The notes under the pieces were generated by a model. It made no database searches, was not told where the DNA came from, and saw only the letters and a list, made by a program, of their open reading frames with translations. DNA of 64,000 nt from Nitrosopumilus zosterae. GTDB lineage: Archaea; Thermoproteota; Nitrososphaeria; Nitrososphaerales; Nitrosopumilaceae. A program made the position numbers and the translations under genes. Where the stretch lies: positions 434,001 to 498,000 of the forward strand of contig NZ_AP026695.1 of the NCBI RefSeq assembly GCF_025998175.1, given 5' to 3'. The stretch's first letter is position 1, and each line of letters opens with the position of its first letter. Below, piece after piece: positions 2,197 to 54,135 of this stretch.

Positions 2197-2198
2197 TT

Positions 2199-3245
2199 CT
2201 ATACTGGAGTCAATGGGGTGTTCCTTAGTCCGTCCATTTCATCAAAACCACACATTACATTCATGTTTTGAATGGCAGAACCTGCGGCACCTTTCATCAA
2301 GTTATCTGATGCAGACAATGCGATTAATCTATTATTGTCTTCATCTAAATCAAATCCGATGTCACAAAAGTTTGAACCAACTAAGAATTTTGGATCTGGG
2401 AATTTGTATAATCCTTTTTTATCTCGAATTAATCTGATGAATCTTTCTTCACCATAAGCTTGACGATATAATTTCCATAATTCTTTTTCTTCAATATCTT
2501 TTTTCAAGAATGTGTGATTTGTACACAAAATTCCACGAACCACATCCACTGCATGTGGGCTCATTGAAACACGAATTTTATGTCCTGCAATTTCACTAAG
2601 CTCCTGTTCTATTTCGCCAGTGTGTCTGTGTTTTGCAGGTTTGTATGGTCTGATGACTCCAGCTCTCATTGCATGTGCGGTCCCTGAACCAGAACCTGCG
2701 CCAGAAGAGCCGATTTTAGAATCTACTACAATATGTTCTGTATCGATTATGTCATTTCGAATTAATGGTGCAAGAGCTAACATTGATGTAACTGCCATGC
2801 ATCCCGGACAGGAGACAAGCTGTGCTTTTTTGATTGCCTCTCTATGTAATTCAGGTACTCCGAAAACTGATTTTGCTAGGTAATCTGGGTGTGGATGTTC
2901 CCAACCATACCATTTGTCATATGCATCCTGATTGTGCAATCTATAATCTGCACTCAGATCTATCACTTTGATTCCTCTGTCATACAGTGCCTTTACAATT
3001 TCAGTTGCAGTTCCATGAGGAACGGCAGTGAAAACTAAATCGCATTGATCTGTTAATTTATCATAGTCTAATTCTGAAAACATTAGATCTGTAAATCCTT
3101 TCAAACTTGGTTGAACTCTGTGGAGATACTCTCCTACATGTTGCCTTGATGTAACCATGGCAATTTCAACATCTGGATGATTGACAAGTAGACGAAGCGT
3201 TTCTCCACCTACATATCCTGATGCTCCAACAACACCTACTTTCAT
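2199..3245 (-). CDS. lysY: LysW-aminoadipyl/glutamyl phosphate reductase (LysY)
   Basis: A 348-residue NADPH-dependent semialdehyde dehydrogenase of the ArgC/LysY family that reduces the acyl phosphate made by LysZ. The Rossmann motif GVVGASGYVGGETLRLL is at the N-terminus. The catalytic cysteine lies in VSCPGCMAVTSMLAL, around residue 148. The conserved HRHTGEIEQEL segment and the SPHAVDVVRG substrate loop follow. It is the fourth gene of the argG-lysW-lysX-lysY-lysZ-lysJ order, 28 bases after lysX and 2 bases before lysZ. Confidence 0.93.
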   Translation of the reverse strand: MKVGVVGASGYVGGETLRLLVNHPDVEIAMVTSRQHVGEYLHRVQPSLKGFTDLMFSELDYDKLTDQCDLVFTAVPHGTATEIVKALYDRGIKVIDLSADYRLHNQDAYDKWYGWEHPHPDYLAKSVFGVPELHREAIKKAQLVSCPGCMAVTSMLALAPLIRNDIIDTEHIVVDSKIGSSGAGSGSGTAHAMRAGVIRPYKPAKHRHTGEIEQELSEIAGHKIRVSMSPHAVDVVRGILCTNHTFLKKDIEEKELWKLYRQAYGEERFIRLIRDKKGLYKFPDPKFLVGSNFCDIGFDLDEDNNRLIALSASDNLMKGAAGSAIQNMNVMCGFDEMDGLRNTPLTPV

Positions 3246-3273
3246 GATAAGTCTCCTCGCAAAGGAGTATAAT

Positions 3274-4131
3274 TTATTTCCTAACGTAGTTTAGGGCAAA
3301 TTCTACTATTTCTTTTGGTATGTTTCGTTTAGAAACTCTTGCCAATCCTTTGAATTCTACTGTGTTGTTCACTTCGTGGACTATGAGTCCCTTTTGATCG
3401 TCTTCCATCATATCAATTCCCAAAATTCCTCCGCCCATGGCTTTGGATGCTTTTACGGCCATATCTTCCATCTCTTTTGAGATCTCACAAAGTTCAGGAT
3501 CTGCACCAAGTGCAATGTTTGTTTTAAAACCTCCTGAAGATTTTCTGTACATGGCCGCAATGGGCTGATCCCCTACTGTGATTACTCTGATATCTCTTGG
3601 TGGTCTTTTGATTAACTCTTGCAAATAGTAAATTCTATCATGTGGACTATCCGTAATGTCTCTAATTTCAAAAACTGCCTCCATGGTGTCCTTGTCCTTT
3701 AATGGCATTACTCCTCTTCCCCAGCTTCCAATTACAGGTTTAATCACCAGGGGAAACCCAACTTTTTCTAGATTCTCAGCTGCGCTTTGACTGGAAAATG
3801 AAAAATATGTTCTTGGTGTTGGAACATTGTTTTTCTTTAGTAGCAATGTCATGAACATTTTATTTCCACAAATGTTTGCAACTTCGAATTTGTTTAAAAC
3901 TGGAACATCTAAAAATTCTAAACTTGCTGTAAAATGCAGGCCTCTGAAATAGCTGACGCATCGTTCTAAAACAACGTCGCCAAAATCATAATCGTCTTTT
4001 TTACTATCTGTGTTTATTTGGGTGATTTTTGCATCAAGCATTACTGCATCATGTCCTAGATCTGATGCTTCTTTTTGGAGCATCTTCTCTTCCGCTCTTA
4101 GGCGGTCAAACACGATACAGACTTTTGACAT
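3274..4131 (-). CDS. lysX: LysW-aminoadipate/glutamate ligase (LysX), ATP-grasp
   Basis: A 285-residue ATP-grasp ligase of the RimK family. It attaches alpha-aminoadipate (and probably glutamate) to the C-terminal Glu of the carrier LysW. Visible are PLVIKPVIGSWGRGV (ATP-grasp lysine and glycine loop), YYLQELIKRPPRDIRV and the metal-binding end IVHEVNNTVEFKGL. Its ATG shares one base with the lysW stop (TAATG), so the pair is translationally coupled. Only one LysX-type ligase and one set of pathway enzymes are present here, so the enzyme may serve both lysine and arginine routes. The sequence alone does not settle its substrate preference. Confidence 0.92.
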   Translation of the reverse strand: MSKVCIVFDRLRAEEKMLQKEASDLGHDAVMLDAKITQINTDSKKDDYDFGDVVLERCVSYFRGLHFTASLEFLDVPVLNKFEVANICGNKMFMTLLLKKNNVPTPRTYFSFSSQSAAENLEKVGFPLVIKPVIGSWGRGVMPLKDKDTMEAVFEIRDITDSPHDRIYYLQELIKRPPRDIRVITVGDQPIAAMYRKSSGGFKTNIALGADPELCEISKEMEDMAVKASKAMGGGILGIDMMEDDQKGLIVHEVNNTVEFKGLARVSKRNIPKEIVEFALNYVRK

Positions 4132-39684: not shown

Positions 39685-41268
39685 CTAGAACACCTTTGTT
39701 TTTCCAGTGTTAACTGTGCTTTTTCTATTCTTTACTATATCCTCAAACAAAGGAACTTTGATTGGCATTGCAAATGGCACAAATATACTAGTTATGATTG
39801 CCTCGCCTTTATCCAAGCTTGCAATGTTTTTGTCATCTTCAGACAAATCCTGAGATGCAGAAGCTATGATTGCCTCTCTTTCCTGCCTCATCTCGTTTCC
39901 TAAAATTATCTTTGTATTCATGTTAGCTAGAATTGTTTTTGGAATGACACTACTCAATTGTGTAATTGCAGTTAGTCCCACTTTGAACTTGCGTCCTTCT
40001 TTGGCTATGGTGGAATAGATGTTGTCATTTCTTGATGTCAGCACATCCACACCGATGACACGCGGCGCTTCTTCAATTACTATGGTAGCTACCGGCTTTC
40101 TATCCAGTTCTCCCGAAGCTTTGGCATCCTTGTATTTCTGCAATAGTTTGGATGCGATGATGTTCCCTACCAATAATTCTGCCTCATCCCCTAATCGCGA
40201 TGTATCCAAAACTACTACCTTGCCTTGCTCTATATCCCGTACGATATCATCAACTGTGTTGAGCCCCTTTGTCGTACTGTCAAAGACCTCGTGTCTTGAT
40301 ACTATTACCTGCTCTTCATCCACTTCCAGGCTCAAAATCAGGCGCAATTTACGCTGAACCACCATCATCGTACCGACTGCAAACTCGCCCTGTCGTCTTG
40401 TATCCCCGCTGTTCTCAATTGATGCAACATTAGTAATCATCAATTCCCGGATCCAGTTTGCCCTGTGCTGTCTGTGTGCAGTTCTGATTGCCTGGAATTG
40501 AGGATCAGAAAAATCTACAATCCCCTCAAAGTGTTCTGGTCTGATTGATTGCAAATTGATTGTCAGTATGTTTGCGCCGACCGGTGGGTTTGACGGAGTG
40601 TAATACACCATGTTCTCTTTGGCCCTTGGATGGTCCTTGAGTCCTACTCCGTTTCTCCCAAAGTATTCGTCATGCGCATCTAGCACCAACGCGCCAACCT
40701 TGTTGGTATCTAGCACATGCCAGAGAATTGTTTTTACCAAGTTTGATTTTCCACGACCTGTGGTTGCAGGAATTAGTACGTGATGCGAAAACACATCTTC
40801 TGCTGGCAACCAAACTTCGGCTTCCTTAATTATTTTGCTTCCACTTCGGATATATCCTACAAAGATAGAGTCTTTCTCCTTTTGCAAGAATTTTAAATCG
40901 TCTTTGCTAATTAATCGCAATTTGTTAAAAAACGAAGGTAGTGATTTTGGAATCTTTACGTCATTATTTTCTTTGTACACTCGTGCTAATGGCTTGATTC
41001 TAGCTAGGACATAGTTTACAAATTCCGGCTCGTAGAAATTTGCATCGACTATTCCCTGCTCTAAATTAACACCTGACATCATCTGCTGCATCTTGTCTTG
41101 TATCTGACTACCATACTCTAACGCAAACACCTGCAAAATCAAAAACGAACCGTTCTCTTCAGAGACCATCAAATCTCCAATCTCTAGATTGGTCCCGGAC
41201 TTTTGACGAATTACAATATCTCCAAAACTTCCTCCGACTACCTGACCCACTATGGAAATCTCATCCAT
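39685..41268 (-). CDS. herA: DNA translocase/helicase HerA
   Basis: A hexameric ATP-driven DNA pump that works with NurA. The N-terminal HAS-barrel ([20 protein letters not shown]) is about residues 1-90. Walker A is [14 protein letters not shown] (about 170-184), and Walker B is in [34 protein letters not shown] is the sensor region with an Arg-rich finger beyond. The ATG at 41268 overlaps the nurA stop (TGATG); a TTG at 41271 is less likely. It is the second gene of the nurA-herA-mre11-rad50 operon. Confidence 0.95.
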
Positions 41269-42365
41269 CAACTGGTCACTCCGTTTAGTGTGTCATGTGC
41301 AGACAAGCTGGCCGAATACTTTTGCAGTCTCTTCCAAATAGGATCTCGAAGCTTCTCAGACAGAATAAACCCTTGATACATTCCCAGTTCATCGCGCCTG
41401 ACTTGAGCAAATCTGTCTGCATCAATCGCCCCATAGGGATAGCCAATCATGGCTACGTCCTGGGAATTCTCAGCCAAACTGCCAAGAACTGAATTTAGAT
41501 CATCAGGAGTCATTAAAGAAAACTGTTCTCGCAGTATCTCAAATCTAAACACGTATCTTGATTTTTCATGAAACTTTACTGCAAGCATGAATCCTCTATC
41601 GTCTCCCGATACTTCTTCTGCAACTTTTACATACCATCTTCCAAATGGAACATCTTCTGCAATCTCTGCAACTCGCGCTAATAATGGATGGCCTGACTCT
41701 GTGATTAATCGACTTGTCTTTGCCAAACCACACACAATCACTCCCTTGCTAATTGCCAAATCATACAGTCTGTTTGCATACTTTGTCTCATTTTTGAAAC
41801 TTGTCTGCAAAGAGCCGTCCATAACTAACATGTCTCCTTTTTCTAGTTCTGATTCTACTACATGAATTGCTAATTGCCATTCAGCAAAGCGTCTGCCTAA
41901 AGAGTTGAGTCTTGCGCCCTGCAATACACTGGTGCTCTCAGTACTTGAGGTCAAGTCCGATTCATCAGGAAGATATTTCTTGTCCTCTGTGCTGTGTGGG
42001 AACAATCTTGTATTGTAACTGACCTCTTTCTTTCCCTTAACCGTTGTAATGTTTGATGTGACACTTGAGAAAAACTGGACTCGAGGATTCGCTTTTGGCT
42101 TTATTCTCTTTTTGCCCTGGAACAATGAAAAGTATACCCGATTGATTGTGATTAAAAAGTTTGGTGACTCTTCTAGTGGACCGTCCCCTCCATCTACAAA
42201 CGCAATCTTGCGAGGTGAATCAATTGATTTTATTTCGACAAACTCTGAAGGTGCAATGAGAAATTGCTTTCCATTCCCATTATTCAGAACTATGTCTGAA
42301 TGCTCTTTTTGTGAAAGATGAGCACCCAATTCTGCAATCATATTTTTTACTGGATCTTCACTCAT
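41268..42365 (-). CDS. nurA: 5-prime to 3-prime nuclease NurA
   Basis: A 365-residue RNase H-like nuclease and partner of HerA. The metal-binding aspartates are seen in [11 protein letters not shown] and [13 protein letters not shown]. The C-terminal motif [20 protein letters not shown] (third acidic cluster) is also family-like. It is the first gene of the operon, with a promoter in the 84 bases upstream. NurA-HerA resects the ends that Mre11-Rad50 recognises. Confidence 0.93.
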
Positions 42366-42726
42366 GTCTAATTTCTCCCCTCTGTGTTGTATGATATTTT
42401 CCTAGAGTAATAATCTGACTGTTAGCTATCAGAGTTTCAACTTGATTCATGGATCAATCTAAGAGTATTAGGACACATGATTATCTATACAATCGATGCT
42501 CTGATAGGTTCAAAATATCCCTTTATGCACTGATGTTGTCTCTTTTTTTGGTCTCGGGTTTTGTCAGTTCAGTTCAACATCTTGATCTTTTATTTATAAA
42601 GGAAGTTGAACTTGTTTCAAATTTGCAACTTGTTTCTGGCCGCAAATATTTTATAAAAAATACCTCATGAATTTGATACAAAACATCAGAAGCACTTTTC
42701 AATAATAGAATAAGATTTCATATTGT
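42366..42726. other. 361-bp interval before the surface-protein block
   Basis: No convincing gene is seen. A 73-residue frame (42449-42670) is present but its amino-acid composition is unconvincing. The right end is leader copy A of the duplicated element, which ends directly at the ATG at 42727. The nurA promoter lies at the left end. Confidence 0.6.
42671..42726 (+). promoter_or_regulatory. Leader copy A of a duplicated upstream element
   Basis: About 56 bases directly before the 42727 start. It shares a 20-base identical block (ATTTGATACAAAACATCAGA) with copy B at 46324. A following stretch (CAGAAGCACTTTTCAAT ... AATAAGATTTCATA) is shared with copy C at 47586, about 35 of 40 bases identical. 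It leads the five-gene surface operon. Confidence 0.65.
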
Positions 42727-43605
42727 ATGAAGTATGCCTTTATTTTTCTGGTATTAACCGGACTTGTAACATCTCCCTATCTTGTTTCTGATGTTTCTGC
42801 GCTATGCGTGATAAATGAAGACTGGCCTGATCAACCGTGTTTTTCTGGAAGACGTGGGGTGGATCCTAGCCTGAATCAGATGAAACAAGGTTGGGCACCA
42901 TACTATGAATTCAAGGGAGCAGAATTGATGGAATCCCAAAAACAGGAATTACTACAAACAATTCAAAATGGAAATCTACTTGAATGGAAAAAGGGAGATC
43001 CAAGTGGAGCACATCATAACGTCTACATGTATTATTTTTTGATGGGTGATATTCCAAACGAGGATGGGTTGTTTGCCGAAGAATATTACGGAGTTCGACT
43101 ATTATCTCCGCTGCGGCAAAGTGATTCTGGGATTGCATTTGATGAGATACATTGTGGAATTGATTTGATTCTAGTCCAAAAGTATGACGACTCTCCTGCT
43201 TGTGTAACGGAATCAACAAAACAGAAATTAATTGAGAGGGGATGGATCACGACCAAAGATGATTCTGATGTCTTTGATTCGATTCCTGCATTTGATTACG
43301 AAATAAAAACCTCGACTGGCGTCACTCATGGAAGCCAATACTTTATTTCAGGTGCATTAGTTGATGAGATTTCTTATGATGAAGATAGAAATTCATTGAC
43401 TGTCTTGATGACTAGTTCTCAAAGCGGAATCTTGCAGATAGTAATGCCGATTGGACTACTGCACTTACCCACACAGATTCCATCTTATGTTGTTATTGCA
43501 GATGGAGAAGAAATAGAATATGAAAAACTAACTCCAATCCTTCTGAAAATATCCTTTGACAGTGGAACTGAAGAGTTGGAAATTATAGGAACTTTGCCAA
43601 AATGA
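42727..43605 (+). CDS. Exported protein with CV motif and beta-domain
   Basis: A 292-residue secreted protein. A signal peptide (residues 1-25, ending VSALC) is followed by a Cys-rich start and an N-terminal region of unknown fold. IHCGIDLILVQKYDDSPACV and then TKQKLIERGW is a motif repeated in at least four other proteins of the block. The C-terminal beta-domain ends ELEIIGTLPK. It is the first gene of a five-gene operon and overlaps the next by four bases (ATGA). Function unknown; it is probably at the cell surface. Confidence 0.75.
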   Translation: MKYAFIFLVLTGLVTSPYLVSDVSALCVINEDWPDQPCFSGRRGVDPSLNQMKQGWAPYYEFKGAELMESQKQELLQTIQNGNLLEWKKGDPSGAHHNVYMYYFLMGDIPNEDGLFAEEYYGVRLLSPLRQSDSGIAFDEIHCGIDLILVQKYDDSPACVTESTKQKLIERGWITTKDDSDVFDSIPAFDYEIKTSTGVTHGSQYFISGALVDEISYDEDRNSLTVLMTSSQSGILQIVMPIGLLHLPTQIPSYVVIADGEEIEYEKLTPILLKISFDSGTEELEIIGTLPK

Positions 43606-44210
43606 AAATCCGTTTCTTGATGATATTTGCATTTGTAATGATTGTGCCCATTACTGAATCCTTTGCCGAACCAATTGAAATAAAATTTGGTGAAACCGTT
43701 CAATATGAGGATCTGAATTTGTCTTTTTATGACATAGAGGATTCTAGATGCCCTCTGGATGTAACATGTATTTGGGAAGGAAAAGTTACTGCCATGGTTC
43801 ACACTAGCAACCAAACCCACAAAATTGGCGCAGGTTTTGAAATTGGTTATCCTCTAACACACATCACACCCTATACAATTACTCTCCTTGATGTAAAACC
43901 ACATCCAATCAGCACTGAAAAACCAGATTATGTTGCAATTCTTGACATATCAAAAATAGGGCCAGAATCTTATCCGGTTCCAGGTAACTTATGTCCCCCT
44001 GGAAAAGTCTTTGATTGGGATATTTGTGTAGATGAATGCCCCTTTGGACAAATTGAAAGAAATGGAATTTGTCATAGTTTTGAAAATGTTTATGATTCTA
44101 ACGACAAACTACCTTGGTATTTCCTTATTGTTGCTTATTGGCCTGTAAGTATCATCATTGTAGGAATTATTGTTACAGTCATTATTGTAGTTTGGAGAAA
44201 AAGAAAATGA
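43602..44210 (+). CDS. Exported protein with C-terminal membrane anchor (module unit 1, gene a)
   Basis: A 202-residue protein with a signal peptide (MKIRFLMIFAFVMIVPITES) and a domain beginning EIKFGETVQYEDLNLSF. That domain contains the paired cysteines DSRCPLDVTCIWEGKVTAMV, a motif I recognise from several archaeal and bacterial surface proteins. A second cysteine cluster (CPPGKVFDWDICVDECPFG) lies near 125-150. One membrane helix (WPVSIIIVGIIVTVIIVVW) with an RKRK tail ends it. ATGA overlaps on both sides show tight coupling. The next gene pair has the same layout. Confidence 0.72.
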   Translation: MKIRFLMIFAFVMIVPITESFAEPIEIKFGETVQYEDLNLSFYDIEDSRCPLDVTCIWEGKVTAMVHTSNQTHKIGAGFEIGYPLTHITPYTITLLDVKPHPISTEKPDYVAILDISKIGPESYPVPGNLCPPGKVFDWDICVDECPFGQIERNGICHSFENVYDSNDKLPWYFLIVAYWPVSIIIVGIIVTVIIVVWRKRK

Positions 44211-44740
44211 AAAATAAAATTATATTGCATGAAAAAATTCTCATTTTGATAATTTCTGTAATTATGGCATCTCATATTGTAGTACAGGTCATCGTACCTA
44301 CAATAAATTCACAGGTTGCTGAAATAGAACCCATCCCAATGGTGACACTAACCAATGAAACTTTGCATAATGCTAAAAACCCCAATAACGGTCCTCAACC
44401 ACAAATTAACTCTGTTGAGCGAACCATGGTTGTTCCTGAACGACCTACAGTGCTGATGATGCTTGGGGCAACACTGAATCATCTTGCATTTGCATTGTTT
44501 GTTGCATTTGCTGGAATTGGAATTGCGTTGCCTTGGATTGGAATTATAATGTTGCAGTTCCCTTCCGGACCTAATGCAATTCCTTTATTCTTTTTCTGGT
44601 TCTTGTCTATGGCGTCCATACCTTTAGTGTGGTGGTTTTCAAAATCAATCCATCTTTTACGTAGAATGTTGTATCTGTATATGATTCCTGTACTGGTTGC
44701 AGGAATTGGAATTACCTACTTTACCAATTTTGGAGCTTGA
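44207..44740 (+). CDS. Polytopic membrane protein (module unit 1, gene b)
   Basis: A membrane protein of 177 residues. The start at 44207 overlaps the preceding stop (ATGA) and is preferred to the longer open frame. About four hydrophobic segments are visible: LILIISVIMASHIVVQVIV, LAFALFVAFAGIGIAL, IPLFFFWFLSMASIPLVWWF and MLYLYMIPVLVAGIGI. The stretch between SIPLVWWF and the end, with RRMLYLY, is repeated as SIPSVIKF and RRFIYVY in the protein at 45231. The two are therefore paralogues. Function unknown. Confidence 0.72.
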   Translation: MKNKIILHEKILILIISVIMASHIVVQVIVPTINSQVAEIEPIPMVTLTNETLHNAKNPNNGPQPQINSVERTMVVPERPTVLMMLGATLNHLAFALFVAFAGIGIALPWIGIIMLQFPSGPNAIPLFFFWFLSMASIPLVWWFSKSIHLLRRMLYLYMIPVLVAGIGITYFTNFGA

Positions 44741-44742
44741 AC

Positions 44743-45234
44743 ATGAAAACTATCTTTTTGATGATTTTGCCATTGGTTTTATTTTTAATGCCTTTATCAG
44801 ATGCACATGCATCGTGTGATGTGTTTTTTCCTATAATACACAATGTTAGGGCGTATGATGAAGCATCCGTAGTATTTTTTGGAACTGTGACTGATGCACA
44901 TGTACAATCGCCTCCTGTATCAGATCCACATAATTCTGAAATTATACGACCCTCTCCTGAATACACTTCTTTTACAGTACACTATGTTTTGAAAGGAGAA
45001 CTAGATGAAAATAGTGTAATGACACAGCCACATTCTTCTGTAGGGTACCGTGGGTTTGTAGAAGGTGAAACTTATTTTGTTTATGCCTATGGGCCGCAGA
45101 ATGAAGTCAATATTTGCACTGCACCTACAATGTCTCTGCATGGATTGTTCACTTTTATTTTCCATGTGGTATTTTTCTTGATTCCATTGGGCATCGTAAT
45201 CACTGTAATTATTTTTTGGAAAAAAAGAAAATGA
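44743..45234 (+). CDS. Exported NTR/TIMP-like protein with C-terminal anchor (module unit 2, gene a)
   Basis: A 163-residue protein with a signal peptide (IFLMILPLVLFLMPLSDAHA). Cys follows at the mature N-terminus, then ASVVFFGTVTDAHV. An N-terminal Cys with a strand of this form (VVFFGTV) resembles NTR/TIMP-type OB folds, an inference only. A late membrane helix (FFLIPLGIVITVIIF) with KKRK matches the anchor of the 43602 protein. The ATG at 44743 is chosen over an upstream TTG. It is ATGA-coupled to the next gene. Confidence 0.72.
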   Translation: MKTIFLMILPLVLFLMPLSDAHASCDVFFPIIHNVRAYDEASVVFFGTVTDAHVQSPPVSDPHNSEIIRPSPEYTSFTVHYVLKGELDENSVMTQPHSSVGYRGFVEGETYFVYAYGPQNEVNICTAPTMSLHGLFTFIFHVVFFLIPLGIVITVIIFWKKRK

Positions 45235-45749
45235 ACACTAGGTTTCAAAAACAATCAAGGGAGAAAAAAATAATTTTTTTTATCGTAGGTTTGTTTGTCC
45301 TGAATGCGTTTGGGATGGTACCTCTTGGAATAATTGGCGCATATACAACTCCGCCCATGACCATAACGACTACAGAGACATTAGAAGACGGTGCAATACA
45401 AGAAAAAACCAGCAAAAAATATTATCACGAAGGGTTGTATGAAACACTGCAAATTCACATCTACGAGTTTTTCAGATATTCGCTTCCATTGACCATGACG
45501 GGATATTTCCTTGTAGATTTGCCTGAATTTTCGTATGATTACGTCGGTGTGATAGTGTGGGTATTATCATTAGTCTCAATTCCTTCTGTGATAAAATTCA
45601 CTGCGCAATTTCCCGTATGGCGAAGATTCATCTATGTTTACCTTATTGCAGTACAAATAGCTGGAATGTGGGCACTAGGTCGTGTTAATTTTGAATGCAT
45701 CTCATTTATTGACTATCCAATACGACCTGGTCCTCCATGTGGTATTTAG
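45231..45749 (+). CDS. Polytopic membrane protein (module unit 2, gene b)
   Basis: A membrane protein of 172 residues from the ATG at 45231, which overlaps the preceding stop by four bases. Four hydrophobic segments are visible, and VLSLVSIPSVIKFTAQFPVW followed by RRFIYVYLIAVQIAGMW aligns with the 44207 protein. It ends the first operon. The extracellular loop carries YYHEGLYETLQIHIYEFFRY. Function unknown; it probably forms a complex with the anchored exported protein before it. Confidence 0.72.
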   Translation: MNTRFQKQSREKKIIFFIVGLFVLNAFGMVPLGIIGAYTTPPMTITTTETLEDGAIQEKTSKKYYHEGLYETLQIHIYEFFRYSLPLTMTGYFLVDLPEFSYDYVGVIVWVLSLVSIPSVIKFTAQFPVWRRFIYVYLIAVQIAGMWALGRVNFECISFIDYPIRPGPPCGI

Positions 45750-45870
45750 TAAAATGTATGGTTCGAATTCGTTAGAATCTACGTATGCAAACCTGTCAGG
45801 ATCTAAACATCGAATCTCCTAAGTGCAGTAATGTGGTTAATTAAAATATTCTGAATCTTAATTCAATTAA

Positions 45871-46233
45871 ATGTCTAGTCAGATTCACATTAAAGCGGAA
45901 ATTATAATTAAAAAAGAAAAAATTAATGAGTTCAAAAAACTGATTCGGAAAATGAGCAAACTAGTTAAGACCAATGAACCAAATACATTACAATACAGTT
46001 TCTATCTTAGTGATGACAACACAAGATGTATTGTTTATGAGAGATATGCAGATTCAAAGGCAACCATTGAACATAACAATGGTGTGGCATCTAAAACAAT
46101 GCTACCACAAATTTTCCAAATATCAAAGTTAAACAGACTTGAAGTTTATGGAAAACCTAGTAAGGAATTACAAAAAATATTGACAAATTTCAATGCAAAA
46201 ATCTATGACTTTGTTACAGGATTTGATCGTTGA
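45871..46233 (+). CDS. Antibiotic biosynthesis monooxygenase (ABM)-like protein
   Basis: A 120-residue ferredoxin-fold protein matching the ABM/quinol monooxygenase pattern. It has QIHIKAEIIIKKEKINEFKK (first strand and helix), EPNTLQYSFYLSDDN, and IVYERYADSKATIEHNN with the family's Y-E-x-Y core. The extra C-terminal about 20 residues exceed the usual about 100. It probably acts as a dimer on a small aromatic or quinone-like substrate, or as a heme-like degrader. Single gene, cytosolic. Confidence 0.8.
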   Translation: MSSQIHIKAEIIIKKEKINEFKKLIRKMSKLVKTNEPNTLQYSFYLSDDNTRCIVYERYADSKATIEHNNGVASKTMLPQIFQISKLNRLEVYGKPSKELQKILTNFNAKIYDFVTGFDR

Positions 46234-46323
46234 TTGAATTTTGAATCAAAGTAATCTTGTTAATCGAGTTAATTTTATAATTTTTGTAATATGGTTCATG
46301 CTTTAAAATTCAAATCTGTTGGG

Positions 46324-46372
46324 ATTTGATACAAAACATCAGACTTTTCAATGACTGGGTGAAATTTCAATC
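46324..46372 (+). promoter_or_regulatory. Leader copy B, orphan
   Basis: A second copy of the leader (shares ATTTGATACAAAACATCAGA with copy A, then CTTTTCAATGACTG with copy C). It runs into the 3-prime end of a convergent gene and leads no plus-strand gene. It is probably a relic of the duplication that made copies A and C. Confidence 0.5.
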
Positions 46373-46769
46373 AACAACCATCTGTGACTATTTGTTGTGC
46401 CAGTGTGGCATTTTGAGAAAATGAAATTCCTTGTGAGTTTGGACATGTCGCACTGACTTTGATTCCACCATGCAAATTACTCACCTTAACATACATCGAT
46501 GGGCCTTTCTCCACATCAAAATGAATCACTCTCCATCCCAGAAACTCGTTGTGCTGATTGGTGGTATATTCAGGGTAGGATTCAATGTATTGCCTTACTG
46601 TTGGATTTTGTGATGCTTTTTTCACATATTCTTCATCAGAGGTAATTGCGGTTACAAAAGACGAAAACCAGCCACTTGCAGTCATCAGTGTAATTGGAAC
46701 CCAAAGAAACCATGTTGCGCCAAGTAAGCATGCAATTCCAATGATTATGATTTTAGTTCTTTTTTCCAT
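46371..46769 (-). CDS. Membrane-anchored hypothetical protein
   Basis: A 132-residue protein with an N-terminal hydrophobic anchor (IIIIGIACLLGATWFLWVPI). The soluble part contains two cysteines (SATCPNSQG, TDGC), likely a disulfide, and a HFDVEKGPSMYVKVS strand pair. Not assignable. It lies on the opposite strand between the two surface operons. A small membrane-peptide gene follows upstream on the same strand. Confidence 0.65.
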   Translation of the reverse strand: MEKRTKIIIIGIACLLGATWFLWVPITLMTASGWFSSFVTAITSDEEYVKKASQNPTVRQYIESYPEYTTNQHNEFLGWRVIHFDVEKGPSMYVKVSNLHGGIKVSATCPNSQGISFSQNATLAQQIVTDGC

Positions 46770-46826
46770 TTTTCTGTATTTGACAATTCCTTTGGACTAA
46801 AAATCTCATTAAAAGTATTTTTTGCA

Positions 46827-46955
46827 TTATTCCATAATTGTTGAAAGATACCATGTTAGTAGTCCCAATCCAAACAAGCCTCCGATTAAAATCCCTCCAA
46901 ATTTGATAATGTCGTTTAGTTGATCAGATGGAATATGAATTGGCCAAAAAGTCAT
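46827..46955 (-). CDS. Small single-helix membrane protein
   Basis: A 42-residue frame, MTFWPIHIPSDQLNDIIKFG followed by a helix (GILIGGLFGLGLLTWYL). A short periplasmic-side start and one helix suggest a real small membrane protein. A TTTTAGTT box lies about 27 bases upstream. Confidence 0.5.
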   Translation of the reverse strand: MTFWPIHIPSDQLNDIIKFGGILIGGLFGLGLLTWYLSTIME

Positions 46956-47051
46956 GTTATATTGAAACTGAAATTAGAACTAAAACGTATCTAATCCTTG
47001 TCATGATGTGAGTAGAACATTTCACAGTGCGCAGAGATATGTGATCTCTTA

Positions 47052-47273
47052 CTATGCAGAAAGCAGTTTGACTTTCTTTTTCTGTACTTCTGTAAGTGAG
47101 GTTTCCACAGCATCTATCTTTGATGACATTTCACTGAGCATTTTTCCCATTAGATCTTCAGTTCTGGGTTGTTCTCCAACATTCTTTGACTTTTTTTTTG
47201 TTGCTCTGCTGTGATCTCCATGTTTGTTTATGCCCTTCAAAACCGCACGAAAGCCGTGATTTCGTAAGCTCAA
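47052..47273 (-). CDS. Small basic protein downstream of a HicB-like gene
   Basis: A 73-residue basic protein overlapping the HicB-like gene by four bases (ATGA). NHGFRAVLKGINKHGDHSRA has a trace of HicA-type G-F...K-G-x-H pattern, but the HicA catalytic His context is not clear. The C-terminal half is a charged helix (LSEMSSKIDAVETSLTEVQ). It could be a divergent HicA partner or an unrelated protein. Confidence 0.5.
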   Translation of the reverse strand: MSLRNHGFRAVLKGINKHGDHSRATKKKSKNVGEQPRTEDLMGKMLSEMSSKIDAVETSLTEVQKKKVKLLSA

Positions 47274-47500
47274 GCCGTAATTTCAATAATCTTGTTTTTT
47301 TCTTTCTTTGCTTTGTCTTGAATGTATTCTAAAACAAGTTTGATTGCATCTGCCATGTTTATCTTTAATTCTTTGAGGGTTTCGCCTTGGCTTATGGCTC
47401 CTGGCAGTTCCAGACATTTGCCACTATATCCGCCCTCTTTTTCCTTGTTTACCAGTATGGTGAACTTTCTTGATTTTTGAGAAACCTGCATATTTGTCAT
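47270..47500 (-). CDS. HicB-like antitoxin domain protein
   Basis: A 76-residue protein with the HicB fold. KFTILVNKEKEGGYSGKCLE followed by LPGAISQGETLKEL and NMADAIKLVLEYI are the partial RNase H strand-helix pattern of HicB. It lacks the DNA-binding extension of full HicB. It overlaps a small basic protein gene, a position where HicA would sit. A toxin-antitoxin pair is suggested but only the antitoxin-like half is convincing. Confidence 0.72.
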   Translation of the reverse strand: MTNMQVSQKSRKFTILVNKEKEGGYSGKCLELPGAISQGETLKELKINMADAIKLVLEYIQDKAKKEKNKIIEITA

Positions 47501-47585
47501 TACTGTATTATTGTAATTAAAGTATCTGTGCTCATGAAGGTACTTTAGTTTAGATTGTGTAGGTTTTGCACTTGAAAATAATATA

Positions 47586-47631
47586 AAATGTCAGAAGCAC
47601 TTTTCAATGACTGAATAAGATTTCATACAGT
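47586..47631 (+). promoter_or_regulatory. Leader copy C of the duplicated upstream element
   Basis: Copy C lies directly before the 47632 start. It matches copy A across CAGAAGCACTTTTCAAT and AATAAGATTTCATA with a few changes. It starts the six-gene serpin operon, so this operon and the 42727 operon probably share control. Confidence 0.65.
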
Positions 47632-49218
47632 ATGAAACATTTTGTGGTTTTCCTTATCTTGATTGGTTGTATTACATTTGTCCCAGAAGTGTTAGGTGCT
47701 AAACAGAATCTTTTTGAAGGTAGTTCCAGCTTTGAAAGATTGCCTGACACAATAATTCCGGGTGCTCTATATGAGTTTGAACTAAAGTTCCAGATAACTG
47801 ACTCCCCATATTGGTTACGCGGCATGTCTCCAATTGTGGATATTACTCCCAAAACAGATGCAAGTAGTGTACACATAAATTTTGAGAGAATACCAAATGG
47901 TTTTTTTGCCATATATCGAGTTCCAGTAACACTGTATGTAGATCAAAACATCTCTTCAGAAAAAATATTTCTAAACATATCCTTTGTGAGTAAAAATTCT
48001 AGTGGCGATGAACTGAGAAGTGCTTGGTCTGAATCAGCAGTTTTGAATATTTCTCAACTACCGTTGCCTGCCGAGTTACCTAGTAGTCAAGACTATGAAT
48101 TTGCAACAATGAGTGGTGCAAGTTGCACGTATGATTCATCTGTATGTTTTGGCATGTTTCACAACGGAACCACAATTCCAATCCAATGCGACTATCGTCA
48201 CAGCTGTGGGATAGTTTCATTTGACAAAGACGCCTACAAGTTGGAAGAAAAACCGCCACTAAAACAAATCAAACATGGAATTCCAATTGACGAAATACAA
48301 TGCAAAGATGACTTTGTACAAGTTTTCAAAAAATCTAATAATTCTCCAGCATGCGTGAGTCTTGATACGAAAGCAAAACTGATGCAGAGGGGCTGGGCTG
48401 AACCATTAGGAGATATAATAAAACAAAAAACTGTACCTTCTGAACCTGAATTGACACCATTAGATATTGCAAGTATTGAAGACAGATTTGTGCACCTGAA
48501 TCCTACTGACATGTGTGCAACAATCTCACTTCGCCTTCTTTCACATGATGATCTAAAACAAACAAAATCTGGCACAAAAGATGTCGTGTTCTTTGAGCTT
48601 GATGAAAAGTCCCTGAATGAATTTCCCATACTTGGTGAACTGATTAGGGCAACGCACTATATTGAGTCTCCATCAAATGAGCATTCCAAGACAGAGATTG
48701 GGCTAAGAGAGTTGGTAGATTATGAATTTTTTATTATGGAAAAGGCAATTGCAAAATACAATGACACGCAGGATGATTATTTTATGAAACTGGATGGTAA
48801 TCTGGATGAAAAGCTTGCAGATCCCAAAAAACAAGGATTCTCAAATGAGTTTGTTGCCCCACAAATAGTATATCGTGACAAATCATACACGATGGGCTCC
48901 ACCGTGTTTTGGATTGCAGATGAGCATGAGATGCAATCAATATCAATTCGTCTGCAAGATGATCTCAAAGACGAAAAATACATCACATTGACTGACAAGG
49001 ACATGGATTCTGTCCCAAAAATAAAACAGACAATTGAAAAAATTGGAACCGAACTTGAAAGCATCGTGGCATTTAAGGGAGTGCCTGAAAATCCTGACTG
49101 GAACAACTATCGAGAATGGTTTGATCAAAAAAAGACGGCATACAACCTAGACGATGTGTATGTTAAAGGATTTGTACATGACGAGGAATACTATGATTTG
49201 GGATTTCTTATTTGCTAG
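47632..49218 (+). CDS. Large exported protein with CV motif
   Basis: A 528-residue secreted protein with a signal peptide (FVVFLILIGCITFVPEVLG). The N-terminal about 140 residues look like an Ig-type beta-domain (YEFELKFQITDSP). A disulfide-rich linker (SCTYDSSVCFGMFH) precedes the block motif IQCKDDFVQVFKKSNNSPAC and KAKLMQRGW. The C-terminal about 250 residues (from LTPLDIASIEDRFVHLNPTD) are alpha/beta with repeated hydrophobic strands and unknown function. No membrane anchor is visible. It is the first gene of a six-gene operon, followed after 11 bases by the serpin. Confidence 0.75.
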   Translation: MKHFVVFLILIGCITFVPEVLGAKQNLFEGSSSFERLPDTIIPGALYEFELKFQITDSPYWLRGMSPIVDITPKTDASSVHINFERIPNGFFAIYRVPVTLYVDQNISSEKIFLNISFVSKNSSGDELRSAWSESAVLNISQLPLPAELPSSQDYEFATMSGASCTYDSSVCFGMFHNGTTIPIQCDYRHSCGIVSFDKDAYKLEEKPPLKQIKHGIPIDEIQCKDDFVQVFKKSNNSPACVSLDTKAKLMQRGWAEPLGDIIKQKTVPSEPELTPLDIASIEDRFVHLNPTDMCATISLRLLSHDDLKQTKSGTKDVVFFELDEKSLNEFPILGELIRATHYIESPSNEHSKTEIGLRELVDYEFFIMEKAIAKYNDTQDDYFMKLDGNLDEKLADPKKQGFSNEFVAPQIVYRDKSYTMGSTVFWIADEHEMQSISIRLQDDLKDEKYITLTDKDMDSVPKIKQTIEKIGTELESIVAFKGVPENPDWNNYREWFDQKKTAYNLDDVYVKGFVHDEEYYDLGFLIC

Positions 49219-49229
49219 AGGAAGGTATA

Positions 49230-50528
49230 ATGAAAACTAAATTCTTAATACTGCTTATTGTAATTGTTTCAGCAAGCATTACTGTAATCCTTGCACCAAC
49301 TGTACTGTATAGTTTAGACAATACTGATGATGAGAGAAAATTCCTTGAAGAAAATGACGTATCAAACTCAAATTCCATGTTTGATGGTTTGCTCCAAGAT
49401 AGTCCGATTAATCTTTCTGATCATGCTTCATTAAACTCAAATGAGTTTGGTTTCAAATTTTACAAACACCTGTCTACCTCTGATGAAAACTTGTTTTTTT
49501 CACCTATTAGCATCGATATTGTTTTTGCCATAATCTATGAAGCTGCACAAGGCGAGACTAGAGAAAACATGCAGCAATTGTTTTCGTTTGAACAAGATTC
49601 AGAGAAAAGACGACTATCTTACAAAAACACAATTAAAAACCTAAACCAAGCAAACCCTGACTTTGAATTAAATGTCAAAAATGGAATATGGGTTTCAGAC
49701 ATGTATGAGCTAACTCCTGAATATGTAAAAATAGTAACAAATGACTATGCTGCATCCTCCCAAAATGTTGATTTTGTCTTCAATCATGGCGTTCAAACCA
49801 TAAATCAGTGGATTAAAGAAAACACAAACGGTAAAATTGAAAAAATTTTTGAAGACAATAGCACTGGACCCCTAACTTTGATGGCAGCAACTAATACCGT
49901 TTACTTTAATGGATTGTGGGAAAAACAATTTCCTCCCGGCATGACATATGAAAGGAAATTTTTTGTCACTGCTGATAATGTACAAATGATAGATATGATG
50001 AAGATTAAAAATCATCATTTTAATTATTATGAAGATGATGCCGTAAAAATTGTTGAACTTCCTTACAAAGGTAACAGGGCATCCATGTATCTTTTACAAT
50101 CCTTTGAGATGCATCAGCTAAAACAGTTAGAAGACAATCTTACTGCAAATTATTTTAATGAATTAAAATCCAAACTATCTGAAAAAATGGTATCAGTAAT
50201 TATACCAAAATTTTCAATGGAGATGGATTATGATCTCAGGGAGATTCTAACAGAAATGGGGATGATACATCCGTTTTCTCGAGAATTGGCTGATCTAAGC
50301 GGAATGGCAGATTATCCAAACATCTTCATAGATGAGGCAGTTCACAAGACTGCAATTGATCTTCATGAGTTGGGAACAGAGGCTGCTGCTGCAACTGGAG
50401 CAATGGCTGAATTGCAATCAGGTTCTCCATACACGTTTTATGGAAATCATCCGTTTGTCTATATTATACAAGACCATGAAACTGACCAAATATTGTTCAT
50501 GGGAAGATTTGTTAATCCATTGACTTGA
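49230..50528 (+). CDS. Serpin (serine/cysteine protease inhibitor)
   Basis: A 432-residue serpin with an N-terminal signal/anchor (FLILLIVIVSASITVILAP). ENLFFSPISIDIVFAIIYEA is the start of the serpin core, followed by AATNTVYFNGLWEKQF. The hinge and reactive-centre loop are HELGTEAAAATGAMAELQSG with a full P17-P8 consensus. By alignment to alpha-1-antitrypsin numbering P1 would be Gln and P1-prime Ser, a guess. HPFVYIIQDHETDQILFMGR ends the fold. It is the second gene of a six-gene operon. It probably inhibits proteases at the cell surface; archaeal serpins are rare. Confidence 0.93.
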   Translation: MKTKFLILLIVIVSASITVILAPTVLYSLDNTDDERKFLEENDVSNSNSMFDGLLQDSPINLSDHASLNSNEFGFKFYKHLSTSDENLFFSPISIDIVFAIIYEAAQGETRENMQQLFSFEQDSEKRRLSYKNTIKNLNQANPDFELNVKNGIWVSDMYELTPEYVKIVTNDYAASSQNVDFVFNHGVQTINQWIKENTNGKIEKIFEDNSTGPLTLMAATNTVYFNGLWEKQFPPGMTYERKFFVTADNVQMIDMMKIKNHHFNYYEDDAVKIVELPYKGNRASMYLLQSFEMHQLKQLEDNLTANYFNELKSKLSEKMVSVIIPKFSMEMDYDLREILTEMGMIHPFSRELADLSGMADYPNIFIDEAVHKTAIDLHELGTEAAAATGAMAELQSGSPYTFYGNHPFVYIIQDHETDQILFMGRFVNPLT

Positions 50529-50530
50529 AA

Positions 50531-50923
50531 ATGAAAACTAGAAATCTAATAATTACTGGAATTCTGGGAGTTGTCTTGTCATTTTTTGTGATTACTGGTT
50601 TTTTGGTGTTTGTTGTAGCTCCACTTAACAATCAACAAATTACTGATTACCAGTCAAATGAACTAGTAAAACAATTCCATGAAACCTATCCACAATCTGG
50701 AATGACTACAATGTCTGGCACATTGTTTGAAGACCACATTAGTTTCACTTATTTTAAAAATGCAAGATATGTTTCGTTGACTTTTAGTGATGGTATGGAT
50801 GGTCAAAAAATTACTTACAAATGTGAAAGAATTATCTCATCTCAGGAACCTGTTGAGATATTCTACTTTGAAGAGCCAACCATTCAAACCATCAAAGATA
50901 ATGTATGTGGAGAATATGATTAG
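50531..50923 (+). CDS. Membrane-anchored hypothetical protein
   Basis: A 130-residue protein with an N-terminal helix (LIITGILGVVLSFFVITGFL) and a soluble domain with two cysteines (YKCERIISS, DNVCGEYD). It starts two bases after the serpin stop; a TTG two codons upstream is an alternative. The domain (TMSGTLFEDHISFTYFKNA) has no recognisable motif. Operon position alone suggests surface function. Confidence 0.68.
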   Translation: MKTRNLIITGILGVVLSFFVITGFLVFVVAPLNNQQITDYQSNELVKQFHETYPQSGMTTMSGTLFEDHISFTYFKNARYVSLTFSDGMDGQKITYKCERIISSQEPVEIFYFEEPTIQTIKDNVCGEYD

Positions 50924-50926
50924 AAA

Positions 50927-51601
50927 ATGAAACTAGAGCATGCAATAATAATATCTGTTGGAGTTTTGGTTGGTACATCTGGATTGTTGATTTCCATTGA
51001 ACCAAACACAATCCCGCATTGGGAAGCACTGCTTGCCATCAAGCAATTCCATGACCTTGGATGTGATAAGGAATGCAAATTGAAATGGGAATCAGATGGA
51101 TTTGCTTGTGTCAAAACTACAGAAAATGAACATGTTTGCAGACCCCCTAGAGAAATTTTTTATCCAGACCGAGAAGTGCAGGTGCGTACTGCATTTCCAT
51201 CTGAATATGGCGAGTTTTTGTATTTTCCAGACGGTCTCACAACTGATGATGGGAGACTCTTTGATATTCACAAAGTTGATTTGATCAATCATGACACTAA
51301 GCAAATCAGAATAGAATTTGCAAATCACAACACAAGCCCACCAGAACTTCAGTTTGAATACTATGCAAATCTTGTTCAGGGACAAACATTTGTGTCGCAT
51401 TGTACTGGAACTGATAGAAAAATGGGTCATGTGGTCGAATATCTTGATACATTTGAGATTGATGGACAAACATACATAGAGTTTTGGGGAAGTCATGTAA
51501 AGATGCCTGATGCACTGCTTCCATGTCAGATGCCTGAGCTAATTGAGCATTCAATTCCATATGATCTGAGTCTAGGAATACAATTTGAGGAATATAGTTG
51601 A
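50927..51601 (+). CDS. Exported Cys-rich hypothetical protein
   Basis: A 224-residue protein with an N-terminal hydrophobic segment (AIIISVGVLVGTSGLLISI). LGCDKECKLKWESDGFACVK has a weak form of the block's CV motif. The rest is beta-rich (DIHKVDLINHDTKQIRIEFA) with a few further cysteines. It starts three bases after the previous gene and overlaps the next by four. Function unknown. Confidence 0.7.
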   Translation: MKLEHAIIISVGVLVGTSGLLISIEPNTIPHWEALLAIKQFHDLGCDKECKLKWESDGFACVKTTENEHVCRPPREIFYPDREVQVRTAFPSEYGEFLYFPDGLTTDDGRLFDIHKVDLINHDTKQIRIEFANHNTSPPELQFEYYANLVQGQTFVSHCTGTDRKMGHVVEYLDTFEIDGQTYIEFWGSHVKMPDALLPCQMPELIEHSIPYDLSLGIQFEEYS

Positions 51602-52686
51602 AAACTAGATTTTTAACATTAATTGTAGGTCTTGTCATTGCATCATCAATTTCATTTGTGGTTCTTTGGAATGCGCTTGAAGAATGCGATGAGCAATGCG
51701 AGCTTGAAAAAAGACGAATTGAAGCTGGCAGACCAAACATTGGAGTGTTGGAATTGCCAAAAAAACAAGAACCTGTTGAAGACATCACCGTGATGAGACC
51801 AAACAGCATGGAGTTTTTCTACTATCCAAACCCAGAAGATACTGAAAATAGGGATGTCTTTCAGAAATTCATTTTGATTCGTCTTCCAGAAGCACTGGGA
51901 GGTACAGTGGATGACGTCTCTGCATTCAGAGCGTATAGTGCATTATCTGTAGGTGTTCATTGCCAGATAAAATACTGGCCAGATGATGGTCGTCAAAGAA
52001 TGGAGGATCCTTGCTGGGGAAGTATGTATCGACCAACTGATGGCGCAATGATGTATCCGTATCCTGTGATGAATGATTCTCCTTTGGGTTTGCCATATCT
52101 TGATCTGTCCATTGATGAGAACGGCTCTCTGTATGTAGAGCCGCCTGTCTGGACCATGCAGGAAAATGGTGTCATTGGAGTTGGACGCATCATGTCTATG
52201 CAAGAAATTCGTCAGGGCTCTCAAATTCTAATTGACTCGTACAAGAAAACAAACCCCAATCATCCAATGATTCCCGTGGACTTTGCAGGGCTTGTCTTGG
52301 CAGAAATCCATCCTGATCATAACAATGTGAATGCAAGATATACTGATTTTGCATCATCATCCTACCAAAATATCTCCTTTGAGGTAAGAAACGTATCTGC
52401 ACAAGATCAAAAGTCTTTTTTGAATGTTGCAAAACCAAATTCAGAGTTTTGGCAGATTAATGACACAATAATTAGAATTGGAGGCAGTGCAATGGATAAA
52501 AACAGCAGTCTACCCGAAAGCTTTCGCGATTATAACGTTGAATTTATTCTAGATGGATTTACGTTTGTCATTACAGGACCGGATCTGAATTCCATAAAAA
52601 CATCCATAGTTTCAAACTATTTCCCAGAGAATAACTATGATGACTTGTTTTTGGTTTCAAGTACGGTGATGGAAAATGAAAACTAG
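51598..52686 (+). CDS. Exported protein with cluster-less Rieske-like domain
   Basis: A 362-residue protein with a TTG start overlapping the previous stop, and a signal/anchor (LTLIVGLVIASSISFVVL). Residues about 90-185 resemble a Rieske fold: AYSALSVGVHCQIKYW, then DPCWGSMYRPTDGA and LPYLDLSIDENGSLYV. Compared with CTHLGC/CPCHGS, the ligand positions are S117, G119, D137 and W140. The disulfide positions C122 and C139 are kept. The C-terminal part (about 190-362) is unrelated and beta-rich. It probably no longer carries an iron-sulfur cluster. Confidence 0.6.
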   Translation: MKTRFLTLIVGLVIASSISFVVLWNALEECDEQCELEKRRIEAGRPNIGVLELPKKQEPVEDITVMRPNSMEFFYYPNPEDTENRDVFQKFILIRLPEALGGTVDDVSAFRAYSALSVGVHCQIKYWPDDGRQRMEDPCWGSMYRPTDGAMMYPYPVMNDSPLGLPYLDLSIDENGSLYVEPPVWTMQENGVIGVGRIMSMQEIRQGSQILIDSYKKTNPNHPMIPVDFAGLVLAEIHPDHNNVNARYTDFASSSYQNISFEVRNVSAQDQKSFLNVAKPNSEFWQINDTIIRIGGSAMDKNSSLPESFRDYNVEFILDGFTFVITGPDLNSIKTSIVSNYFPENNYDDLFLVSSTVMENEN

Positions 52687-52990
52687 ATTCTTGATCATTA
52701 TCAGTTTAGTCATTATGGGAACTATTCCGTTTGGTACATTTCCAAAATCCTTTTCCGCATGTATTTTTGATGAAGATGCTGGAAGATATTTAGAACCGTG
52801 TCGTGGTCTTCCCATGCCCCCACCTCTATCATTAAAACAACAAATTGCAGATAACGTATCAATGTTTGAAATTAAATGTCCAAATCCAGAACATGTTCTT
52901 ACTCAAAGACCAAATAGCAGTTTAGCATGTGTTTTTCCAGAAACACAGGAAAAATTAAACTGGCAAATTGTCTATTATATCATAAAATGA
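52676..52990 (+). CDS. Short exported protein with CV motif
   Basis: A 104-residue protein with a signal peptide (FLIIISLVIMGTIPFGTFP). Its motif FEIKCPNPEHVLTQRPNSSL is followed by ACVFPETQEKL, the same pattern seen in four other proteins nearby. The expected RGW after it is replaced and the protein stops soon after, so it is either a minimal version or truncated. It overlaps the upstream gene by 11 bases and ends the operon. Confidence 0.68.
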   Translation: MKTRFLIIISLVIMGTIPFGTFPKSFSACIFDEDAGRYLEPCRGLPMPPPLSLKQQIADNVSMFEIKCPNPEHVLTQRPNSSLACVFPETQEKLNWQIVYYIIK

Positions 52991-53048
52991 TTTGTGTAGT
53001 TGTTGGTGTCGTTTTAGTTTGGGAAAGAGGCATTGGTGCTTTTTGAAT

Positions 53049-54020
53049 TTATCCGATTCTTCCCTTGAGAATAATCTTCTCATCTGTTCCAGAAGGTGTA
53101 GACCTGTCGATGTATCTGATTTCATAGCTGTCCCCAATGTGGATAACTTTGCCATCTAACTCTCTTGGAATCTTGATCTTCACCTCAAATGTGCTTGTAT
53201 TGGGGCCTGTCTCAATCAAATAGCTGGAGTTTGCGTCAAATCTTGGATTTGCCAAAGTGGTTCTGATTCCTCCATCCCCTCTATATTCAAGAGAACTTAG
53301 TGGGATTTTGTCTTCATCTTTGGAATCCCTATTTGCATCAGGCTCGTAAATTCTTACGGTAAATTCATGGCCAATTCGCGAACCTCCTCCAGACGATTCT
53401 ACTTTGGCAAACGTCTTTGTTAAAGGAACTGACTTGACCAAAATCCTTTGTTCTCCTGAATAGTCTGATTCATCCAAGTATTTTATCAAGACAATATCGT
53501 CTTGACTCAGCGGTCTTCCATTTATTGTGTCTGGCAGTTCCAATCTGATGTAGAACTCACCGGTGTTCGGTCCTGTCTCAATCATGTTTTTTGGACCCTC
53601 TATTGGAATTCCGTTAATGGTAAATTCAAACAATCCCTGAATGGGAACAACCTCTATTCCACTATGTGCCGTATTCAGGTCCTGATCAGTGATGTAGAAA
53701 TTCACTATTGACATGCTTGATGCAGGGACTGTCTGCATCTCTTTTTCTGATGCCGTAACTGATTGGATGTCTTTTTGCAAATCTGAAAAATTTATCGGAA
53801 TCAATAACATTCCTGCTTTTTTCATTCTCTCTGCAGTATCTGGTTTTACACAGGCGGCATCTCCGTTTGTTCTGATTACTCGTTCTAATCCTGCTTTACA
53901 CATCACGTCTGCAGCTGAAACTCCTCGCTCCATCTGTTTTCTAGGAGATTCCACGTCTCCGTATGATGGTTGAATCATAAGAAACACACTGCAAATAATT
54001 GCTGCATAAACCAAATTCAT
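53049..54020 (-). CDS. Exported protein with CV motif and two S-layer-like Ig repeats
   Basis: A protein of 323 residues from the ATG at 54020; the frame extends to 54179 but those residues look spurious. A TTATTTATG box about 27 bases upstream supports the leaderless start. A signal peptide (YAAIICSVFLMIQPSYG) is followed by DVMCKAGLERVIRTNGDAAC with TAERMKKAG, the block motif. Two domains repeat the surface-layer-like pattern IETGPNTGEFYIRLELP and IETGPNTSTFEVKIKIP, each ending in a YLD/YID strand. It probably attaches to the S-layer. It is divergent from the PEFG gene. Confidence 0.75.
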   Translation of the reverse strand: MNLVYAAIICSVFLMIQPSYGDVESPRKQMERGVSAADVMCKAGLERVIRTNGDAACVKPDTAERMKKAGMLLIPINFSDLQKDIQSVTASEKEMQTVPASSMSIVNFYITDQDLNTAHSGIEVVPIQGLFEFTINGIPIEGPKNMIETGPNTGEFYIRLELPDTINGRPLSQDDIVLIKYLDESDYSGEQRILVKSVPLTKTFAKVESSGGGSRIGHEFTVRIYEPDANRDSKDEDKIPLSSLEYRGDGGIRTTLANPRFDANSSYLIETGPNTSTFEVKIKIPRELDGKVIHIGDSYEIRYIDRSTPSGTDEKIILKGRIG

Positions 54021-54135
54021 TAATATTTTTTGAATTTCTTTACATAAATAATTTGATAACAAGTTGTACTCTTCCGAAAACCACATCTGAGAATTTGCCG
54101 TTTTGTTATATCTGGTAAAATCTATTGATCTTTGA

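Follow-up and report, generated by a model that had tools for sequence, protein, structure and literature searches.

Operons for exported and membrane proteins in Nitrosopumilus zosterae as probable cassette arrays from a gene pool shared within the Nitrosopumilaceae

Introduction

What connects two neighboring operons of Nitrosopumilus zosterae that encode exported and membrane proteins and are each introduced by a copy of the same leader? An earlier note on this DNA had interpreted operons A and C as one co-regulated, undescribed extracellular system including a serpin and a modified Rieske protein. The stretch analyzed here, referred to as the window, is 64,000 nucleotides long and corresponds to bases 434001-498000 of the complete 1.775-Mb contig. 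For comparison, a set of genomes of the same genus was used, which includes Candidatus Nitrosopumilus salaria BD31 (G046) and Nitrosopumilus sp. HKST02 (G015). The main feature that emerged beyond the earlier note is a start word of the inner genes, together with the cassette-like exchange marked by this word.

Results

The accessory island and its genes

Both operons lie in a 10.6-kb accessory island that is flanked by a NurA-like gene and a gene at 53049 (Table 1). In G013, the same flanking genes enclose an unrelated 2.8-kb insert instead of the 10.6 kb, and synteny resumes beyond it. This insert contains a transposase-like gene and a tRNA-like sequence.

Table 1. Positions of the features described in the window and in related genomes
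Feature	Position	Strand	Properties
Accessory island, 10.6 kb	42456..53047	.	absent at the same G013 site
NurA-like flanking gene	41268..42365		
TATA-like box upstream of leader A	42647..42662	+	TATTTTATAAAAAATA; identified by sequence
Leader A	42675..42732	+	box 1 GATACAAAACATCAGAAGCACTTTTCAAT, core 42688-42703, near-palindrome TTTCATATTGTATGAA with start codon
Operon A gene 1	42727..43605	+	exported, WING-49 domain at residues 128-174
Operon A gene 2	43602..44210	+	exported/membrane; homologues in G084 and G041 arrays
Operon A gene 3	44207..44740	+	membrane protein
Operon A gene 4	44743..45234	+	exported, C-terminal membrane anchor
Operon A gene 5	45231..45749	+	membrane protein, distant paralogue of gene 3
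Leader B	46324..46369	+	decayed; AAGC of core missing, no attached gene
Inverted gene beside leader B	46371..46769	-	MEKRTKIIIIG...
Leader C	47586..47637	+	core 47593-47608, palindrome TTTCATACAGTATGAAA at 47621-47637
Operon C gene 1	47632..49218	+	exported, WING-49 at residues 209-256
Operon C gene 2	49230..50528	+	exported serpin, start word ATGAAAACTAAATT
Operon C gene 3	50531..50923	+	exported, start word ATGAAAACTAGA
Operon C gene 4	50927..51601	+	
Operon C gene 5	51598..52686	+	TTG start, start word TTGAAAACTAGATT, weak Rieske-like similarity
Operon C gene 6	52676..52990	+	short, exported, WING-49-like domain, start word ATGAAAACTAGATT
Gene beyond the island	53049..54086	-	WING-49-like stretch at residues 48-92, syntenic in G013
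GTTCAAACCTnTATGGATT-type upstream sequence	L068 14586; L066 694; L070 8188; L009 2559; window 46281		
wHTH/exported pair	L066 17586-19635; L068 7699-9685; L076 1282-3394		
PF01909 protein	L011 5718-6599; L069 17099-17953; G003 and G002 arrays	- (L011)	
Collagen-like repeat protein	L101 11664-13319	+	GPP/GEKG repeats
G013 insert	L115 (G013:C1:1600401-1620300), 1250-4050	reverse	transposase-like gene, tRNA-like sequence

Operon A comprises five and operon C six genes, all on the same strand; as the earlier note had described, the two have domain types in common but arrange their genes differently. The domain WING-49 (NCBIfam NF058652) was detected in the first genes of both operons with 66.4 and 78.0 bits, compared to a cut-off of 22; in the literature searched, no mention of it was found. 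Altogether, WING-49 was present in 52 proteins, in which clusters on its N-side pair with several clusters on its C-side and vice versa, a result that may in part be inflated by the loose single-linkage clustering. These varying combinations suggest that WING-49 may be a second, internal joint at which exchangeable N- and C-terminal modules meet. The C-terminal module of operon C gene 1 is common to arrays in G000, G084, G015 and G045. Since the gene beyond the island, which is syntenic in G013, also contains a WING-49-like stretch, the domain occurs outside arrays as well.

Gene 2 of operon C matched the serpin family PF00079 (Pfam) with an E-value of 5.1e-101 over residues 70-430, and a hinge of the inhibitory type (GTEAAAATGAM) can be read from the sequence. 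The product can be predicted with certainty to be a serpin with full fold and inhibitory-type hinge. The proposal of an undescribed extracellular system that includes a true serpin was supported. Relatives of the serpin occur in arrays of G084, G015 and G083. By contrast, the designation of the gene 5 product as a modified Rieske protein turned out to be weak. Its best scores were an E-value of 0.15 for a Rieske structure and of 0.056 for the model of the arsenite-oxidase small subunit. In the alignment, the protein lacks all four ligands of the [2Fe-2S] cluster (two Cys, two His; CxH...CxxH) and retains just the disulfide cysteine pair.

Over 134 amino acids, the inverted gene adjoining leader B, the decayed copy, shows 38% identity to a cassette of a G083 array (L068 18202-18630) and may therefore be an inverted cassette.

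Sequence and distribution of the leader

Leaders A and C were found where they had been located before. They form the longest direct repeat of the region from 40 to 56 kb (105 nt, 70%), and a genome-wide search with copy A retrieved copy C at an E-value of 1.5e-11. The reported close match also held, as 5 of 46 bases differ around the core. The leader consists of box 1 (GATACAAAACATCAGAAGCACTTTTCAATGA), approximately ten variable bases and a near-palindrome (TTTCATACnGTATGAA) that encloses the start codon. Its core, the 16-mer AGAAGCAYTTTTCAAT, occurs six times in the 1.775-Mb contig, in which neither an extra site at one mismatch nor any site for the reversed word was found. Using a profile built from eleven copies, nine copies were detected in the genome at E <= 1.1e-8. 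Thus, the leader is not a feature of two operons. Clear copies (E <= 1e-5) were identified in 11 of 95 genomes of the genus, often with several copies within ~45 kb. The idea of a single co-regulated pair could not be maintained, since the leader opens many arrays in this genome and in its relatives and often resides without a TATA box inside arrays. Nor is it a common genome-wide promoter motif: it is rare and located almost exclusively in front of genes for exported proteins.

In 34 of 43 leader hits, the ATG follows the core at a distance of 37-42 nt, nearly always 39-40 nt, and 33 of these 34 ATGs open a stretch resembling a signal peptide. The array-opening first gene behind the leader begins with MKYFVIFL. 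The upstream regions of the two operons differ, as operon A has a TATA box, while inspection of the sequence upstream of leader C revealed no canonical one. A TTTTATAAAAAA box (0-1 mismatch) was detected upstream of only seven leaders, A among them. For the other six, the nearest gene on the same strand is at least 300 bp away; the ORF that appears as a same-strand neighbor of leader A, at a distance of 17 bp, lies within the divergent upstream region and is spurious. About a dozen leaders without TATA box start 11-63 nt after a same-strand gene, and many copies sit within arrays, directly 3' of another gene and likewise TATA-less. The upstream context switches abruptly at GATACAAAAC, being of the TATA, the GTTCAAAC or the ATGAAAACTA type. 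A second upstream type, approximately GTTCAAACCTnTATGGATT, lies directly 5' of GATAC and is repeated in TATA-less leaders.

The leader may serve as promoter/5'UTR for co-expression, and co-regulation of the operons carrying it is plausible. A structured RNA element was rejected because the leader has no match to an Rfam family and an ordinary folding energy (one of six sequences gave a z-score of -2.45, the others were near 0 or above). A coding function (frame ...YKTSEALFND) was dismissed by inspection, as the changes are not biased towards synonymous ones and the ATG spacing shifts the frame. An origin from viruses was discarded since an exact leader match was absent from the viral contigs searched, and a tRNA-anchored island since no tRNA was detected in the 20 array stretches scanned.

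Some genes recur next to the arrays of relatives. A conserved pair composed of an ArsR-type wHTH gene and a gene for an exported protein adjoins arrays in three genomes and is a candidate for regulation through the leader palindrome. A protein with a nucleotidyltransferase domain (PF01909) is repeatedly encoded beside array genes in four genomes, and a collagen-like repeat protein was found near the arrays of G083.

The start word of the inner genes

Inner array genes open with near-identical DNA, the word AGAAAATGAAAACTAGAnTTTTGATAATT, which extends across the stop/start overlap (consensus of array gene starts: GAGAAATAGAAAATGAAAACTAGACTTTTGATAATTATT). Within the stretches studied, 85 gene starts lay within one mismatch of ATGAAAACTAGA, compared to 1-3 for six shuffled words. 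The exact 14-mer was detected in 38 of 95 genomes of the genus (reversed control: 0-1 per genome per strand) and a 22-mer form in 21 of 200 genomes of the family, belonging to three genera, with zero control matches. Signal-like N-termini are encoded by 95% of the word-bearing genes. The threonine codon ACT is used in 58 of 61 MKTR starts, compared to 38% elsewhere in the same genes (p ~4e-21), and conserved bases continue upstream of the ATG into the 3' end of the preceding gene, whose stop codon the ATG overlaps as ATGA in 53 of 165 cases. Because of the ACT bias and the conserved 5' bases, the constraint must lie on DNA or RNA and not on the signal peptide alone. Upstream of about -13, sequence conservation at the junctions revealed no conserved, attC-like sequence.

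Families, gene order and transfer of cassettes

Arrays of 5-20 start-word genes on one strand were identified in G084, G083, G045, G047, G041 and G046. Beyond residue 35, 157 array genes fall into 88 unrelated families, 51 of which are single. A homologous neighbor was found for only 2 of 42 cross-genome homologous pairs of array genes, compared to 16 of 119 pairs of other genes in the same stretches. In the compared regions, which are a biased sample as they were fetched for carrying the leader or the start word, DNA homology ended within -10..+25 of a start word in 71 of 365 cases (random: 4.7; maximum 12 in 500). Part of this clustering is to be expected since genes are functional units. 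Only 5 of 93 homology blocks had both ends at junctions and 36 ends were attracted by other gene starts, so that exchange is not confined to junctions.

Three cassettes common to G047 and G083 showed 96-98% nucleotide identity with ends at -5..+22 of the junctions, and two of them are flanked on both sides by start words in at least one genome. At third codon positions, the three cassettes are 94-99% identical, compared to 65% for rpoB between the same two genomes, which indicates single-gene transfer between these species. Operon C gene 4 corresponds to an 84% identical cassette at two places in G083, with homology covering 50923-51589. G084, a sister genome (rpoB 95%), carries an intact leader locus at 1339419 that holds several cassettes. 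At the same locus of G000, segments have been lost in comparison with G084. The joints of these deletions lie at short imperfect homology, one at the start of the leader gene and one inside a start word. Neither a circular cassette nor a recombination event as such was seen.

Discussion

It is probable that both operons are arrays of cassettes taken from a mobile gene pool for exported and membrane proteins that members of the Nitrosopumilaceae share. The genome comparisons demonstrate that word and leader are shared, that gene bodies are unrelated and their order is scrambled, that homology ends at the word and that single cassettes have been transferred between species. More tentatively, the arrays may be the product of an undescribed system for cassette capture and shuffling that differs from integrons: recombination at start words would build translationally coupled arrays of interchangeable surface-protein genes, each of which moves singly between species.

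A cassette would comprise the DNA between successive start codons, with the start word (~30-40 bp) as its 5' border. The word would supply the start and the beginning of the signal peptide to the downstream gene and often the stop (ATGA) to the upstream gene, and for this reason an operon would stay translatable after each swap. The leader that opens an array would combine a 5' regulatory element with the first gene. Whole cassettes may be swapped in frame by recombination at start words and leaders, most likely of the homologous or short-homology kind, which is favored over a dedicated recombinase because most arrays are without integrase and the deletion joints are imperfect. By this means, one expressed operon could exchange surface proteins while retaining start, stop and secretion signal. 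The products would act at the cell surface, for instance the serpin against foreign proteases.

There is nearly an even chance that conservation of the leader is purely regulatory, the leader being the promoter of an alternative archaeal TBP/TFB pair or, at the palindrome, the operator of a wHTH repressor. The ATG spacing of 39-40 nt, the rarity of the motif, the palindrome over the start codon, the ArsR-type wHTH genes beside arrays in G084, G083 and G047 and the lack of a stable RNA fold (one of six at z -2.45) agree with such a role. However, it accounts for the leader only, not for the inner start word or the transfer of cassettes, and is compatible with a cassette pool rather than exclusive of it.

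It is unlikely that a dedicated site-specific recombinase moves the cassettes in trans at the start word, the leader core or both, using the leader as acceptor site in the manner of integrons or phase-variable surface genes. Short conserved borders, same-strand arrays and the abrupt upstream switch at GATACAAAAC would suit such an enzyme, and each array-rich genome has at least one tyrosine recombinase (PF00589; present in 57 of 95 genomes and in 38 of 56 good-quality ones). However, the gene is not located beside most arrays. Linkage was seen only in G083 (~12 kb away) and G046 (same contig), and the sole hit in G000, at 1186041, is far from any leader or array. Moreover, the recombinases of G000 and G083 look unlike each other by eye, the junctions have no attC-like conserved sequence beyond about -13, and the deletion joints fit imperfect short homology. 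Tandem duplication with fast divergence of secreted paralogues, in which the common start is an old signal peptide and the leader a regulon promoter, is highly improbable: it matches the signal-like starts of 95% of the word-bearing genes, the TATA box at array starts, the fixed leader-ATG distance and some true paralogues (operon A genes 3 and 5), but the bodies are unrelated (88 families including the serpin), conservation extends to synonymous and 5' non-coding bases, and near-identical single cassettes with differing neighbors in different species indicate single moves.

If the arrays are read as cassettes from a common pool, they invite comparison with integrons (IntI, attI, attC), including those of archaea (PMC9668308), which likewise line up unrelated small genes on one strand behind a common 5' element and share single genes between species with changed neighbors. 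Unrelated, singly mobile genes on the same strand are a trait of the arrays described here as well. What separates them from integrons is a border formed by a start-codon word instead of attC, the stop/start overlap of the genes and the fact that nearly all cassettes encode exported proteins; attC-like conservation was not seen at the junctions, and the PF00589 search, which linked a tyrosine recombinase to arrays only in G083 and G046, identified no IntI. Borrelia vls and mycoplasma vsa/vsp also reshuffle surface proteins by joining a constant promoter/signal-peptide end to variable bodies. By contrast, many operons appear to be expressible at once here, and the bodies are unrelated families, not alleles. 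For exported serpins of thaumarchaea, an action on proteases of the cell itself or of other organisms has been proposed; they were reported almost exclusively from sponge symbionts, frequently adjacent to S8 proteases (PMC6790972), whereas the serpin described here is one cassette among many. In the openly accessible journal literature searched, no description of a cassette system of this kind was found. Papers on archaeal integrons, thaumarchaeal mobile elements and populations of Ca. N. brevis refer to cassettes or integrons but describe no comparable system.

Few cells in the sea are as abundant as ammonia-oxidizing archaea. How their surface varies in response to viruses, grazers and hosts is, to our knowledge, a largely open question. 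A cassette pool with a readable border would allow the exported accessory proteins of these archaea to be listed directly and their exchange to be traced, and any genome or metagenome can readily be searched with the border word. If the proposed mechanism is true, integron-like modularity may be possible without attC sites.
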